Source: Desulfotomaculaceae bacterium
Lineage (GTDB): Bacteria > Bacillota > Desulfotomaculia > Desulfotomaculales > Pelotomaculaceae
NCBI GenBank assembly: GCA_028696455.1
Contig: JAQVGZ010000003.1
Coordinates: forward strand, 1 to 64,000
Reading direction: 5' to 3'
Length of the DNA: 64,000 bases
Shown here: in pieces, positions 1 to 7,119 of the stretch
How the letters are laid out: every line of letters begins with the position of its first letter
Position numbering within the stretch: the first letter of the stretch is position 1
Position numbers and translations under genes: made by a program
The notes under the pieces: model-generated
Told to the model about the DNA's origin: nothing
The model's input: the letters and a program-made list of their open reading frames with translations, nothing else
The model's database searches: none

Positions 1-1557
1 AATCACATTGACTTCATCTAGCCACTGGGGTTTTGCATTCCTGGTCAGGGGCGGTATGTGCTTAGGCATGATCATTGCCTCATTGCTGCTCATGTTAATA
101 ATCGACCGTCCGACGATATTTTCCAGTTCTCTGATGTTGCCCGGCCAGTCGTAGGTCATAAATATGTCAATTACCACCGGTGATAATTCGGGCACTTTCC
201 TCCCATATTCTTGGGCGATTTTTTCACATAGATGAGTTGCTAAAAGGGGTATATCCTTTTTGCGATCCCTGAGTGGCGGGATAAAGACCGGGACTACGTT
301 CAGCCGGTAGTACAAGTCTTCACGAAAAGTACCCTCATTTATTCTTTGCTCCAAATTTGCATTAGTGGCGGCGATTACCCGCACATTTACTGGTATTGGA
401 TTAGTGCCACCGACCCTTACTATTTCTTTTTCCTGCAGTACTCTGAGGAGTTTCGCTTGTAAAGCGAGGTCCATATCACCAATTTCGTCAAGAAAGATAG
501 TGCCGCCGTCCGCTTCCTCGAAGTAACCCTTTTTACCGCCCCTGACTGCCCCTGTGAAAGCTCCCTCTTCATATCCGAAGAGTTCACTCTCCAGTAAGGA
601 TGGGACGATGGCCATGCAGTTGACCCGGACAAAAGGCCATTTGCATCTGCTGCTAACGTTATGGATCGCATGGGCAAACAGCTCTTTCCCCGTGCCGCTC
701 TCTCCTCTTAACAGCACCGTGGCTGGGGTGTCAGAGGCGTGCCTGGCCTGGGCAATGGCAGCCTTGACCGTTTCGCTGTTGCCAATAATGTCATCAAAGG
801 TATATTTGGCCTGTAAGTGTCTAATCAGTTTCCTGGCGTTAGCCAGTTCTTCGGATAGTTGCATGATTTCAGAAATATCCTGGATAACCCCAACGCTTCC
901 CCGCAGTTTTCCTTCTATCATTACAGGGGCGACATTAACCACGACTTCCTTTTTCATCGGCCCCATCTTTAACCTGACCCCGCGCACCTGCTGTCTGGTC
1001 TGGAGTACTTTTAAGTGCATGCTTTCACCTTCAGTTACTGCTACCGATGCTGGTTTACCAATAACGTCAGCCTCGGTGAGGCCGGTAATTTTGGTGTAGG
1101 CAGGATTAATCAAAATGCCGTTACCCTTTTCATTGACTACGGTAATGGCATCATTTGTGGCATAAAGGATCGCTTCCAGCCAGGATCTTTTTTCTTTTAG
1201 CTCTGCAACTTGCTGATTAAGTTTTTTAATTTTGGTTACGTTGCGAAGGATAGCTACGGCGCCGGCAACCTTGTTATCCGCTATGATCGGAAAATAATTG
1301 CAGACTGCAGTGGTATCTCCAAGCTGCATCAGTTGACGGAGTTCTGATAACCCTGTCTTTAAGACTTTCGGCAAGCAAGAATTGGGAATAATCTCTGCTA
1401 CTGGTTTACCCAGGGTGTCGGTAGCCTTAAGGCTGGTAATTCTTTCAGCGGCAGGGTTAAATATAGTGATCACACCAGCTTTATTTACAGCAATCATGGC
1501 TTCAAAAGAAGAATTTAAAAATACTTCAAGAAGGGCGTAATCAGTTTTTCCCGGCAA
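1..1557 (-). CDS. Sigma-54-dependent transcriptional activator (PAS-PAS-AAA+), C-terminus beyond window
   Basis: Bacterial enhancer-binding protein that would remodel sigma-54 RNA polymerase. Read on the minus strand from a TTG at 1557, six bases after a GAGGTG ribosome site. The first ~250 residues look like two PAS sensor modules. The AAA+ domain follows, with Walker A GESGTGKE, the sigma-54 contact loop GAFTGA (about 543-560), FLDEIGD and the [14 protein letters not shown] segment near the edge. The C-terminal DNA-binding helix-turn-helix lies outside the window. It follows the hydrogenase genes on the same strand after a 122-base gap, so it may be co-expressed with them or control them (inference). 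Ligand unknown. Confidence 0.93.
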
Positions 1558-1679
1558 GACATTCACCTCGCAACTTAATATTCAATAGATCTGTGAATAA
1601 TCCTGCATGGAAATATTAAATGCAATGTAATTATCTTCATTATAATTGCACCTTAACACTTTATCACGATATACCTTCA

Positions 1680-2042
1680 CTAATTAATAACCTTCCCGGC
1701 CCCAATGTTTCCTTTACCGTCGAGCACATGGGTGGCACAGGAAATACACGGATCAAATGAACGAACCGTCCGGCCAAGGATGGTAAAGAGCATATCCGGC
1801 CTGGGTATTTCCGTACCCACCAGGGCGCTCTCCACAGGCCCGCGGCCGCCGTTTTTATCCTTAGGCGAAAAATTCCAAACTGTAGGGGTAATAATGTTAT
1901 AATTGGTTACCCTTTCCCCCTCAATGTGCGCCGTATGGAGCAAGGTGCCCCGCATAGCGTCAACTGCCGCAGTTACTTCATTTTTCACTGGTGTTTCCTT
2001 TTGACTGATGGGCGGGGGGCCGGGTTCAAGTTTTTTCAGCCA
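1680..2042 (-). CDS. NiFe hydrogenase large subunit, C-terminal part (after in-frame TAG)
   Basis: C-terminal part of a hydrogenase large subunit, in the same frame as the upstream part and separated from it only by a TAG codon at 2043-2045. It has the L2 nickel ligand motif DPCISCATH followed by a 15-residue tail, as expected for the peptide removed by a maturation endopeptidase. Immediately after the TAG the frame reads WLKKLEPG, which matches the normal family sequence, so nothing is missing. A GTG at 1988 preceded by AAAGGA could allow separate initiation of a 102-residue fragment. Whether the product is made by suppression, reinitiation or not at all cannot be seen. Confidence 0.85.
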   Translation of the reverse strand, partial: WLKKLEPGPPPISQKETPVKNEVTAAVDAMRGTLLHTAHIEGERVTNYNIITPTVWNFSPKDKNGGRGPVESALVGTEIPRPDMLFTILGRTVRSFDPCISCATHVLDGKGNIGAGKVIN

Positions 2043-3080
2043 CTACTGAACCAGTTCAGTAATCAACAGGGTTTCAAGCGTACGGGCGTAAATTCTGTCC
2101 ATCGTAGAAACGCCGCCACTGTAAAACCCATTTATAATCATCCGAGCCAACGGCCCCACTTGATAATGACGGCCTTCATACTGAACCGATTTGACCCAGG
2201 TATAAGCGCCCGTTTTATGAGGATCGGGCTTTATTTCCAGTTTATTGCTTTCGTCGAACCAGGAGCGGTTAACGTCCTCTTTGATCAGGTCAAGCCGGGG
2301 CAAAGAGAACCGGCCGTCCGCCAGTACTCCGCTTTTCCATAAAAACGTTTCGTTTTTCACACCGAAACGAAAGAGCCCGAAGGATAAAAGATGTTCGGGT
2401 GTTATCCCTATTCTAAAGTAATCGCTATAGACCCTGGCAATAAGCTCGGTGTCAGGAACCATATGACTTTCCACAAATTTTTTGATATCTTTAATCAAAG
2501 CGAGGGCCCGGTTAATTTTATCAGCTGTGAGTGCTACCGCAACTCCACCATGGACGAAGCTGTGCTGGTGAGGCGCCTTGCCTCCAAACATGGCCAGGAT
2601 TTCATGACTTTTTTGGGCGGCTTTAACAGCTTCGAAGTAATGATTCACTAGACGCAGGTTATCTTTGGGGTCAAGACGGGCGTCAATTAGGTTTTGCCCG
2701 TGAAAAGGGGGATGGTTGGGCATGATTACAAAGTCGGGAAGGCTGAACAAATAGAAATGTCTGATATGGTTTTGCAAAAAATCTGCTGCATACATGATAT
2801 TTCTTAAGTACTGGGCATTTTCCTGTAAATCGTTGTTGTACAGTTCATCGAGCAGGTAACTGGCCACTGCCCCGTGGGCCAGTGAACAAATACCGCAGAT
2901 CCGCTGGGTCATATAAACCGCGTCATTGACTTGCCGATCGCGCATAATCCACTCGAACCCCCTGAACATTGTGCCGCCGGCGTTTGCTTCAATTACCCGG
3001 CCCTGCTCAACAATGACGTCTACGGATAAAAGACCGCTCAAGCGGGTGACGGGGCTGAACATGATTCGCTGTAAGCTCAT
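2043..3080 (-). CDS. NiFe hydrogenase large subunit, N-terminal part (ends at in-frame TAG)
   Basis: N-terminal 345 residues of a NiFe hydrogenase catalytic subunit. The L1 motif RICGICSLAH (about residues 60-69) supplies two nickel ligands. The start ATG overlaps the stop of the small-subunit gene by four bases, typical of translational coupling. The frame ends ...ELVQ-TAG and reopens in the same frame with the missing C-terminus at 1680-2042. Alone this product lacks the second CxxC pair and could not form a NiFe site. CAG, GAG or AAG would each give TAG by a single substitution. Confidence 0.88.
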   Translation of the reverse strand: MSLQRIMFSPVTRLSGLLSVDVIVEQGRVIEANAGGTMFRGFEWIMRDRQVNDAVYMTQRICGICSLAHGAVASYLLDELYNNDLQENAQYLRNIMYAADFLQNHIRHFYLFSLPDFVIMPNHPPFHGQNLIDARLDPKDNLRLVNHYFEAVKAAQKSHEILAMFGGKAPHQHSFVHGGVAVALTADKINRALALIKDIKKFVESHMVPDTELIARVYSDYFRIGITPEHLLSFGLFRFGVKNETFLWKSGVLADGRFSLPRLDLIKEDVNRSWFDESNKLEIKPDPHKTGAYTWVKSVQYEGRHYQVGPLARMIINGFYSGGVSTMDRIYARTLETLLITELVQ

Positions 3081-4045
3081 TCTTTACATCCTTCCGTAGG
3101 CTTGATTTTTTCCCTGCCACTTCCTCCGGTTTTTTCTTTTTCAGGCATAGGAGTGAAAAACGGCATGGAACCGTCTGGAAAATCTTCGTTGGTACAGCCT
3201 ATGCAGGGGGTATTCGCCTTAACCGGCCAGCTGACATAATTGATCCACTGCCTATAGGGGCAGTCTGCTCTTGTCCGGGGTCCCATACACCCGAGAGAAA
3301 ACATGCACTCGATATCCCCCAGCTTTTGGGCGAAATCATTATTATCAAAATAAGAACGCCGCTGGCAATGCCGGTGTACAGTAAAGCCATAAAACAGTGT
3401 GGGACGCCCCAGATTGTCAAGCTCCGGCCGACCGTACATCAGTAAATGGGCCAGGGTCCCCACGAACCAGTCGGGGTTGACGGGGCAACCGCTGACATTA
3501 ATCACTTCCCGGTCCAGCACTTCCCGCACCCCAACACTGCCGGTGATATTAGGCCGGGCCGCGGATGGGCCGCCAAAGCTAGCGCAGGTGCCGGCGGCAA
3601 CGACATATTCAGCCCTTTGACCCAGCCAGCTTACTGCTTCGAGGGCGGTAATAAGCCGGTTTTCGGTACGGGCGATAATGTTATACAGACCGTTTTCTCG
3701 TTTAGGGATGGCTCCCTCTACAACCAGGGTGAATTTTCCTTTGTAAGTTTCAGCAACCTGATCAAGAATGCCGAGCGCTTCCCTGCCCTGGGCGGCCATG
3801 AAAGTATTGCTGTAGAGAAGATCGATCATATCAGTAAAGACTCTGCCCAGGTAGGGATAAGTGGTGTTCATAAACGAAATGTTGTTGTCGCCGCTGTCAT
3901 TAGTTTCTATCCAGACCACGGGCAGCTTTTCTTGGTTATGTTTAGCCAGGTGGCTTTCAACGATGGGTAATATAGCCCTGGTTAGCTCATGATTTTTTAA
4001 AAAGGCAAATTCGCCGCATAACCCTGTGAATTCTTCTTTTTGCAT
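3077..4045 (-). CDS. NiFe hydrogenase small subunit lacking two proximal-cluster cysteines
   Basis: Electron-transfer subunit of a NiFe hydrogenase, 322 residues, without a twin-arginine signal, so probably cytoplasmic. Ligands are visible for the distal cluster (VHRHC, then CMFSLGC) and the medial cluster (DCPYRQW, then CIGC). For the proximal cluster only the later two cysteines remain (GTCASFGG, SGCPVNPDW). The usual N-terminal CTGC, six residues after the conserved Trp, is replaced by SGDN (residues 51-54). The gene overlaps the large subunit by four bases. The change suggests a divergent cluster, a non-enzymatic (sensor-like) role or decay. No maturation protease gene is adjacent. Confidence 0.88.
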   Translation of the reverse strand: MQKEEFTGLCGEFAFLKNHELTRAILPIVESHLAKHNQEKLPVVWIETNDSGDNNISFMNTTYPYLGRVFTDMIDLLYSNTFMAAQGREALGILDQVAETYKGKFTLVVEGAIPKRENGLYNIIARTENRLITALEAVSWLGQRAEYVVAAGTCASFGGPSAARPNITGSVGVREVLDREVINVSGCPVNPDWFVGTLAHLLMYGRPELDNLGRPTLFYGFTVHRHCQRRSYFDNNDFAQKLGDIECMFSLGCMGPRTRADCPYRQWINYVSWPVKANTPCIGCTNEDFPDGSMPFFTPMPEKEKTGGSGREKIKPTEGCKE

Positions 4046-4351
4046 AACAACCTTCCTATTCCTTTAGTCTACTTTTATACTTTTTTATTAATTTATATTG
4101 CCCCGCAAAAAAAAGATGCCCTGGACCATTACTGTAATTCCTGGGAATCTATTTGGACAGGCAGGGGGAAAGTATCAAATATTATAGGGGGTTCTACCGC
4201 ATTTCTCGTTTTTTTATGTAATTACATTACGGATTAAGGGATAATAAAGAAGGTACTGTTCACGTTATATAGAAAAATACATATTGATATAATAAGACCT
4301 TGATGAAACGGGGAAGTAAGCATGGTATAAATTGAAGTGAGGGTGATTCAG

Positions 4352-5323
4352 GTGAAGACGGTTTATGTTTTTGGAGCTGGTGCGTCTGCTGCGGAAGGTG
4401 CGCCGGTACTGCGTGATTTTATAAAGATTGCTTATCAGTTTTTTAAAGAAGAGAATTATAGTGCAGAGCTGGATATCGTTTGGGAGTTTCTCGAAAACTT
4501 CTACGATACTAAAATTGTCCTCAGTTGTGTGGATGACCTGAAAATATTCCCCCGGCTGGAGGAGATCTTCAACATAGTTGACTGGTCTTTATTGCAAAAC
4601 CAGGCATTTTCCATCCGGTTTCCCCGTCCGCGACTATACGAGCTAAAAACGGCGTTAGTCAAACTGATCAGCATGACCCTCGACAAGTCCCTGCCTTCTT
4701 ATAACGGCCTGCATCAGTCTTTTGTATCCGGGGTGGTCCGGGGGGGCGAGGAGGTTCCTACCTTTATATCCCTTAACTACGATATCGTTCTCGACAATGC
4801 TATTCGTGCTACCGGCTATGCCCCGGAATATGGATTCTACGCTAACCACCGGGATCACCTGGATTGTGGGCGGGGCATCCCCTTGTATAAGCTGCATGGC
4901 TCTTTGAACTGGTCTTACTGTCCCCTGTGCGGCGAAATATCCGAACACAATGAAAAGGTGGCGCACCTTTTATTTAAGGATAAACTCACCATAACCTGCC
5001 TGAACTGCGGCAGTGATCACTCGCAGGCGATTATTATTGCCCCTACTTTATATAAATCCTATGATTTTAACAGACTGCAAAATATTTGGGATTGCGCAGC
5101 CACCTCAATTAGCCTGTGTGATCGGTTGGTCTTCATCGGTTACTCCCTGGCTCCAGCGGATACTTCAATTATTGCCACAATAAAAAGGGCGATGAACACA
5201 GTAGAAAAAGAACGCGAGATAGTGGTAATCAACCCCAGCGAAAAGGCATGTATCCGGTATCAGCAGATCTTTGGAGCAAGATGCCGGATTTTACGCCAGC
5301 AATTTACCGGTGAGGTGATCTAA
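4352..5323 (+). CDS. SIR2-like domain protein with zinc ribbon
   Basis: About 323 residues resembling SIR2_2-type NAD-binding proteins. It opens with VYVFGAGASAAEGAP (nucleotide-binding glycine motif), has SLNYDIVLDNA and YKLHGSLNW near the middle, and a treble-clef zinc ribbon (CPLC ... CLNC). Near the C-terminus FIGYSLAPAD resembles the last Rossmann strand. The GTG at 4352 is preferred because GAGGGTG lies just upstream; an in-frame GTG at 4337 would add five residues. Related domains occur as NADases in phage defence and as uncharacterised stand-alone proteins. It is monocistronic, ending in a terminator, and lies next to ku. Substrate unknown. Confidence 0.8.
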   Translation: MKTVYVFGAGASAAEGAPVLRDFIKIAYQFFKEENYSAELDIVWEFLENFYDTKIVLSCVDDLKIFPRLEEIFNIVDWSLLQNQAFSIRFPRPRLYELKTALVKLISMTLDKSLPSYNGLHQSFVSGVVRGGEEVPTFISLNYDIVLDNAIRATGYAPEYGFYANHRDHLDCGRGIPLYKLHGSLNWSYCPLCGEISEHNEKVAHLLFKDKLTITCLNCGSDHSQAIIIAPTLYKSYDFNRLQNIWDCAATSISLCDRLVFIGYSLAPADTSIIATIKRAMNTVEKEREIVVINPSEKACIRYQQIFGARCRILRQQFTGEVI

Positions 5324-5493: not shown

Positions 5494-6336
5494 TTGCGCC
5501 CGATTTGGAAAGGAGCCTTGAGCTTCGGCCTGGTTTATGTGCCAGTGAAGCTTTACGCCGCCACCAAGCAAAAAGACATTAGATTTAATTACCTGCACTC
5601 AAAATGTATAAGCCCGATCCGGTACACACGTTTTTGCCCTTACTGCCAAGCTGAAGTGGCAATTGAGGATATTGTTAAGGGTTACGAATACGAAAAGGGT
5701 AAGTACGTGATCCTTAAAGAAGAGGATTTTGAGCAATTATCCTTTAAAGAGGGCGGCAGGAACATTGATATCCTGGATTTTGTCAACCTTGCCGAAATTG
5801 ACCCGGTTTATTATGAGAAAGCTTATTACCTGGCGCCCGCCGATGGTGGTGCCAAAGTATACGAACTTTTTAAGCGGGCCATTGCTGAGACCGGAAAAGT
5901 GGCGGTGGCCAGGATCATGATGCGCAGCCGTGATGCTCTGGCGGCGATCAGGGTTAGTGGCAGCATATTGGTGATGAGCACCATGCATTATCCGGACGAA
6001 ATCAGGCCGGCTGGCGCCCTCCCGGAGTTGAATTACACGGTAAACTTGCATGACAATGAAATAAAGATGGCGGTTAACCTGATTAACAGCCTGTCCGCGG
6101 ACTTCCGGCCGGATAAATATACCGATACTTACAGGCAGTCGCTGATGGATTTAATTCAGGCCAAAATCGCCGGTGAGGCTGTGGAAGCGCCGGCTAAACC
6201 GGAAACGGGCAAAGTTGTTGACCTGATGGAAGCGCTCCAGGCCAGCATCGAAATGGCCAGAGCGGAACGGGAGAAACAGGGGAAAGCGCAAAAAGAGACC
6301 AGGCCGGCCAGGGCAGGGAAGAGAAAGACATCCTAG
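5494..6336 (+). CDS. ku: Ku protein (non-homologous end joining)
   Basis: Bacterial Ku, 280 residues, a homodimer that threads onto DNA double-strand ends and recruits the LigD ligase. The N-terminus RPIWKGALSFGLVYVPVKLY is the family hallmark. The core beta-barrel and bridge follow, and the tail after about residue 225 is basic (KQGKAQKETRPARAGKRK), as in other Ku proteins that use a lysine-rich tail on DNA. The start is TTG after GGTGAG. The reading frame is intact, whereas the neighbouring ligase that would normally partner it is degenerate. Any end joining would need another ligase encoded elsewhere. Confidence 0.95.
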   Translation: MRPIWKGALSFGLVYVPVKLYAATKQKDIRFNYLHSKCISPIRYTRFCPYCQAEVAIEDIVKGYEYEKGKYVILKEEDFEQLSFKEGGRNIDILDFVNLAEIDPVYYEKAYYLAPADGGAKVYELFKRAIAETGKVAVARIMMRSRDALAAIRVSGSILVMSTMHYPDEIRPAGALPELNYTVNLHDNEIKMAVNLINSLSADFRPDKYTDTYRQSLMDLIQAKIAGEAVEAPAKPETGKVVDLMEALQASIEMARAEREKQGKAQKETRPARAGKRKTS

Positions 6337-6525
6337 GAGGTCCCATTTATGCAGCTTGCTATTCCGTAAAGCCCGTTGCAGTCGAAAGAAACCGGTCGGT
6401 TGCATACATGCGCCCTGGGCGGTCACAATAACTGGCTGGCTAAACGATATGACAAATTTTTTGCATACTTATCCGCGGATAGGTGAACTAAACTATGGAT
6501 CTATTTAACTTGCCGGTTACTGCGC

Positions 6526-7119
6526 CCGATGCTATCCGTGAGCGCTGAGCCTTTTGACAGTGTGGAATATTTATACGAAATCAAGTGGAACGGCTAGCGC
6601 AGTCTGGCTTATTTGGACGGGGAGACCATGCCCGTTTTCGCGGAACCTAACTGAGCTGAACAGCAACTTCCCGGAACTGGGCAGTCTGCACCAGAGGGTG
6701 AAGAGAAAGCCGGCTATTGTCGACGTTGAGATTGTAGTACTGGAAAATCGCAGACCGTCATTTACCAGCCTGCAGTCCCGTGGTCGGCATCATGATTGCC
6801 CGGCATGCCGGGACAGGATATCGGCTCCCTCGTCCTGGGAAGGGAAAGGGACGACCGGCTGGTTTACCAGGGTAAAGTAGGCACTGGCCTGAGCAACCGG
6901 GAAATGGAGGCGCTGTTTGCGGAACTGGAAAAAATCGATGTACAAGAAGCTACTCTGGAGGTTCCCAAAGCGGAAAGGGGCCGCACGCGGTGGGTGCGGC
7001 CTCAATTGGTATGTACAGTTAAATATCTTACCGTTACTGCCGGTGGCTCCCTCTGCCATCCTGTTTACCGGGGGTTGCTCCGGGATAAGTCGCCAGGTGA
7101 ATGCCCGGCAGTGTCATAG
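6526..7119 (+). pseudogene. ligD: Remnant of LigD-type ATP-dependent DNA ligase
   Basis: Three collinear fragments of one ATP-dependent DNA ligase in two frames. From 6526 the frame reads PMLSVSAEPFDSVEYLYEIK, then WNG and a stop at 6595: this is the adenylation motif KxDG with Asp changed to Asn and the next Tyr codon replaced by TAG. About 6640-6780, in another frame, reads SRNLTELNSNFPELGSLHQ through AIVDVEIV to SFTSLQSR. About 6823-7119 reads GSLVLG, LVYQGKVGTG and finally KYL, HPVYRGLLRDKSP, the OB-fold end. Stops, frameshifts and a deletion of the middle of the catalytic domain make it non-functional. It lies directly downstream of ku. The 6337-6525 stretch may be eroded upstream sequence. 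Confidence 0.85.

Follow-up and report, generated by a model that had tools for sequence, protein, structure and literature searches.

A two-gene [NiFe]-hydrogenase found in dozens of hosts, mostly spore-forming anaerobes, carries the sequence DSGDN in its small subunit at the place of the CxGC motif that supplies two of the four proximal-cluster cysteines, and all 45 relatives covering this region read SGDN there. The copy that led to it lies in a 64,000-nucleotide stretch (the window) of a 2.7-Mb draft genome whose nearest relatives are Pelotomaculum/Desulfotomaculaceae. By its Ni ligands and fold the protein is a [NiFe]-hydrogenase, and we give a probability of about 0.58 to the reading, based on sequence, that it is a working cytosolic two-subunit enzyme whose proximal cluster would be held by two cysteines and by oxygen ligands from the DSGDN loop.

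A DSGDN loop where CxGC is expected

In the window's small subunit, W45 is encoded by TGG at 3911-3913 (minus strand); the residue six positions on is S51 (AGC, 3893-3895) and that nine positions on is N54 (AAC, 3884-3886), with G52 and D53 between them. A HMMER alignment lays the DSGDN loop on the CTGC loop of solved small subunits, so that codons and alignment both bear out the preliminary description, which had placed SGDN where CTGC is expected, six and nine residues past W45. Only two of the four proximal-cluster cysteines that mark Group 1-like enzymes are left. The domains PF14720 and PF01058 are present as in that group, as are the distal His-Cys3 ligands (H224, C227, C247, and C253) and the three medial cysteines (C262, C281, and C284), and C154 and C187 are also encoded, just as described. 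An AlphaFold2 model of the small subunit reached a pLDDT of 74.5 and a pTM of 0.81, although it is poor beyond residue 248; that of the read-through fusion of relative L047 reached 73.7 and 0.61.

Relatives were gathered from a scan of genome contigs and from searches of genomes of the family (25) and of the phylum (398), and removal of duplicates left 45 non-redundant relatives that cover the loop region. SGDN occurs in 45/45, in hosts that include Pelotomaculum, Sporomusa, Desulfotruncus, and Pelosinus (cultured hosts are Sporomusa ovata, S. malonica, Pelotomaculum terephthalicicum, and Desulfotruncus arcticus), and because every relative that covers it shares SGDN, the loop is a conserved trait and not a mark of decay. 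D50 is kept in 44 of the 45, the remaining one having Cys, and the conserved unit, judged from this alignment, is [D/C]SGDNN. The SGDN sequences form one clade (SH-aLRT 99 in a quick tree, motif columns included). By the comparison that the preliminary description had asked for, the alignment supports an altered proximal site common to the whole clade.

Table 1. Features of the hydrogenase locus, in window coordinates
Feature	Position	Strand	Remarks
PAS-PAS-AAA+ sigma-54 activator	1..1566	minus	cut by window edge; neighbor, not conserved partner
[NiFe]-hydrogenase large subunit	1680..3080	minus	466 codons, one internal TAG; C62, C65, C445, C448, R377 encoded
TAG, large-subunit codon 346	2043..2045	minus	CAG in relative L032
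Large-subunit S15, place of proton-gate Glu of RxEGH (RLSGL here)	3036..3038	minus	
[NiFe]-hydrogenase small subunit, SGDN type	3077..4045	minus	322 aa, without Tat RR motif; TIGR00391 hydA above cut-off, PF14720 + PF01058
C187, fourth proximal-cluster Cys, kept	3485..3487	minus	
C154, third proximal-cluster Cys, kept	3584..3586	minus	
D50-S51-G52-D53-N54-N55 loop, replaces CxGC proximal-cluster motif	3881..3898	minus	
C10, clade-conserved Cys in N-terminal segment	4016..4018	minus	34/36 in alignment

The remaining cluster ligands are maintained throughout the clade: C154, C187, H224, C227, C247, C253, and C262 are found in 45/45 relatives, and C281 and C284 in 43/45, the exceptions being one truncated and one frameshifted copy. 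This pattern of conservation indicates that the electron chain is still under selection, and the proximal site is for that reason less likely to be empty. Purifying selection is also apparent at the nucleotide level, with differences at codon positions 1, 2, and 3 of about 0.15, 0.09, and 0.46 (window versus L028) and, in both genes, differences from the nearest relatives that fall mostly at third positions.

A large subunit without the proton-gate glutamate

Of 44 clade members, 42-43 have the Ni-binding cysteines of Group 1-like enzymes, C62 and C65 (RxCGxC) and C445 and C448 (DPCxxC), and the others have gaps; in the window, the last two are encoded after the TAG. A second Group 1-like feature is missing: at the Glu position of RxEGH, the clade has Ser in 42/44 members, Ala in one, and Glu in one, where ordinary paralogues read RIEGH. 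In counts that ignore kinship, this Glu is absent from 60/63 CxG[N/D/E] rows with a call and present in 8/9 CxGC rows. Three CxG[N/D] rows (L133, L134, and L152) retain it, so its loss is not required by loss of the second cysteine alone. The Glu is an established proton gate in the passages of PMC11212049 and PMC3325256 that cite Dementin et al. 2004; in one species it is dispensable, and an alternative Arg-Asp-His route is named (PMC3325256). R377 and H105 are still present in the SGDN clade, and the Asp of that route appears, from the alignment, to be Asn.

Ten large subunits of the clade end at CATH with no tail, none of them with an adjacent maturation protease, and a C-terminal tail is present wherever a protease gene adjoins; Peptococcia members retain both. 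The tail-less proteins are of the Sporomusa type and end exactly at DPCxxCxxH (L040-L042, L046, L048, L050, L052, L053, L055, and L062).

A probable stepwise origin of the loop

The nearest outgroup (sister) rows, L093, L094, L099, and L118, read N-A-C-S-G-D-S-I; a separate clade of Bacilli and Clostridium reads CSGN, and a wider Firmicutes assemblage reads CxG[N/D/E] (N in 34, D in 29, and E in 2). Since the CSGD and CxG[N/D/E] outgroups keep only the first cysteine, the second proximal Cys probably disappeared before the other, which then went in the SGDN clade, to judge from these alignments. SGD sits one residue earlier in the SGDN clade than in the sister rows, and one SGDN-clade lineage has Cys at position 50 (N-C-S-G-D-N-N); on these grounds we read the loop as a CSGD that may have shifted by one residue, with Cys replaced by Asp, noting that permutation of the loop residues yields SGD in about 5% of cases. 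Without such a shift, the proximal ligands would be S51 and N54.

The SGDN hydrogenase is a soluble pair, with no Tat RR motif and no cytochrome b gene in the operon, and so is without the Tat signal and membrane partner of Group 1-like enzymes. Among the CxG[N/D] outgroups, L159 and L160 combine a Tat-like leader with a gene for cytochrome b561, which suggests that a respiratory hydrogenase can tolerate losing the second Cys and the Glu. The N-terminal segment around C10 of the SGDN small subunit lines up with a paralogue's RRxFxKLC Tat leader but has lost the arginines. Because this N-terminus corresponds to a Tat leader without arginines, and because some CxG[N/D] outgroups have both leader and cytochrome b561, the soluble enzyme is probably derived from a membrane respiratory one.

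Comparison with known hydrogenases

The best sequence and fold matches are periplasmic [NiFeSe]/[NiFe] hydrogenases (PDB 1cc1 and 4kl8), which have the same subunit fold. Hydrogenases of that type possess CxGC, are exported, and have the Glu gate. The H2-sensing HupUV/HoxBC (Group 2b) resemble the SGDN type in being soluble and in the tail-less large subunits of its Negativicutes members, but the SGDN type differs from them in lacking a dedicated kinase partner and in its altered proximal motif. In the Group 1h ("actinobacterial") enzymes, the proximal [4Fe-4S] cluster is bound by three Cys and one Asp (PMC5364354, PMC8498564). There, too, a carboxylate replaces a proximal Cys and the medial and distal clusters are ordinary, but the SGDN type has two Cys only, has lost the Glu gate, and occurs in anaerobic hosts; with the 1h-type small subunit HofK (5aa5) it shares a remote similarity, in a match that starts past the loop. 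Groups 1f/1g/2a have one proximal Cys replaced by Asn or Asp (PMC5364354), and the CxG[N/D/E] outgroups carry that same single replacement, although, unlike those groups, they nearly all lack the Glu gate, and the SGDN clade loses the other Cys too.

In the open-access literature we found no natural lineage described as lacking both of the N-terminal proximal cysteines, and nothing on the SGDN motif in these taxa in a literature search that omits most subscription papers. A review of S. ovata lists, in its Table 1, a 454-aa [NiFe] hydrogenase subunit with no small subunit given (PMC9253864); by its length, this is probably the SGDN-type large subunit L042 (454 aa).

The proximal cluster is commonly regarded as the point at which O2 tolerance and catalytic bias are controlled, and the Glu nearby as the gate for protons. 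A conserved lineage that has lost the usual form of both, together with the series CxGC, CxG[N/D], CSGD, DSGD in sequenced organisms, constitutes a natural experiment on which of these features [NiFe] catalysis needs.

A proposed mechanism and its alternatives

We propose that H2 would be split at an ordinary Ni-Fe site and that a proximal cluster is kept, held by C154 and C187 and by oxygen ligands of the loop, most likely D50 and D53, which would descend, shifted by one residue, from the sister lineage's C-x-G-D pair. D50 is a candidate ligand because Cys is the only alternative at its position, an exchange typical of metal ligands. Electrons would then pass through ordinary medial [3Fe-4S] and distal [4Fe-4S] clusters to a soluble acceptor (no redox partner of the SGDN hydrogenase was found), and protons, which need another route now that the gate Glu is lost, might exit by new small-subunit carboxylates or on the R377 side. 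We infer the presence of the cluster, the identity of its ligands, the proton route, and the acceptor. Most likely, on this reading of the conserved residues, the proximal cluster is oxygen ligated and shifted in potential, and the enzyme oxidizes or evolves H2; if it works, unfamiliar electron and proton paths would be expected, the CxGC pair and the Glu both being gone. A more specific version, in which the proximal cluster has two Cys and two Asp ligands and one Asp doubles as the proton gate, which would couple the exits of electrons and protons at a single small-subunit carboxylate, is speculative, and we hold it to be the lesser chance.

It is rather improbable that the site instead houses another cluster, a [2Fe-2S] or [3Fe-4S] on C154 and C187, or recruits C10 as a third cysteine. 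The conservation of C10 and a structure prediction with two ordered helices in the N-terminal segment fit such a role, but the ordinary paralogue has this cysteine in its Tat leader as well, so that C10 may be inherited, and L047 has Phe at that position.

Slightly less probable again is that the proximal cluster is absent and that H2 is bound or split without long-range electron transfer, leaving the protein a sensor or a catalyst of isotope exchange only. The loss of both N-terminal cysteines and of the proton-gate Glu, the missing Tat signal, and the Negativicutes large subunits that stop at CxxCxxH without a C-terminal tail would all agree with this. A tail-less large subunit is also a trait of H2 sensors such as HoxC/HupV. 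Moreover, a PAS-sigma54 activator adjoins the window copy, on the strength of which a sensing role had been suggested. Comparison across loci does not support that suggestion: a similar activator lies near the operon in three loci only (the window, L034, and L041), and no conserved regulator or dedicated sensor kinase stands beside the genes across about 45 loci, where HycI and hyp genes recur instead. The medial and distal ligands conserved in 45 relatives would be unexpected without electron flow, and the Peptococcia members with tail and protease likewise speak against an absent cluster. Sensing is possible, but the neighborhoods give it no support.

The TAG in the window copy

The large subunit of the window does contain a TAG, as the preliminary description had stated, but its joint reading of SGDN and TAG as decay fails for the small subunit: SGDN is invariant in the clade, and the TAG is private, with no further sign of relaxation. 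The TAG arises from a single-base C-to-T change, the codon being CAG in L032 and elsewhere one for Q, E, or some other amino acid; the codon-position pattern is alike before and after it, neither window subunit has an odd residue at columns 97% conserved in the clade, and relative-rate tests reveal no consistent acceleration of the window proteins. As both genes otherwise show no relaxed constraint, the TAG, on this evidence, either arose very recently or is an error, and it has no connection with SGDN. That SGDN and TAG are both marks of a dying gene is thus very unlikely, despite the stop itself and the existence of other broken copies. These copies of the SGDN-type pair are L051, L054, L058, and L063, of which the last, in the isolate genome of Sporomusa acidovorans strain Mol, consists only of remnants, with a missing N-terminus and frame breaks in both genes.

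Without read-through, the window copy would lose two C-terminal Ni ligands, and it may be dead while the SGDN family lives. Read-through, by pyrrolysine or by suppression, with a functional window copy is the least probable reading: the frame is open and conserved past the TAG, but a sense codon stands at this position in the other SGDN-clade members that cover it, and a search of the genome for pyrrolysyl-tRNA synthetase (PylS) gave nothing above cut-off.

Gene neighborhoods

A divergent HycI protease accompanied by hyp genes recurs in many SGDN loci, and the sister rows share this protease; the only HycI of the window's genome adjoins that genome's other hydrogenase. Other neighbors at SGDN loci are ferritin-like, Mn-catalase-like, and DUF2642 proteins. 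A CATA box lies 18-62 bp upstream of the start codon in 28/35 operons against 6.9 expected from shuffles, and in 31/42 operons against 12.9 expected under a first-order Markov model. It often reads GCATATnnT and resembles the -10 element of mother-cell sporulation sigma factors; the CATA-box operons have no -35 element, and the window operon has no CATA box. Co-occurrence with SpoIVA is uninformative, since SpoIVA is present in 84% of the sampled genomes, and we regard any connection with sporulation or with oxidative stress as a lead only.

A cytochrome-b5-like protein usually adjoins the CSGN-type genes of Bacilli and Clostridium, and such a heme protein is also encoded near the one SGDN-clade member with Cys50 (the loci are L064, L066-L070 [about 3.3-4.0 kb], L065, and L043/L165). 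Upstream of the window's hydrogenase, in divergent orientation, lies a gene for a SIR2-like protein with two CxxC pairs (4337-5323), of which no homologue is clustered beside the other loci compared. Farther on, the interval 5494-7119 contains an intact Ku gene (280 aa) and, after it, an ATP-dependent DNA ligase in fragments, whose middle and C-terminal domains lie in different frames with internal stops, so that end joining looks half lost here.
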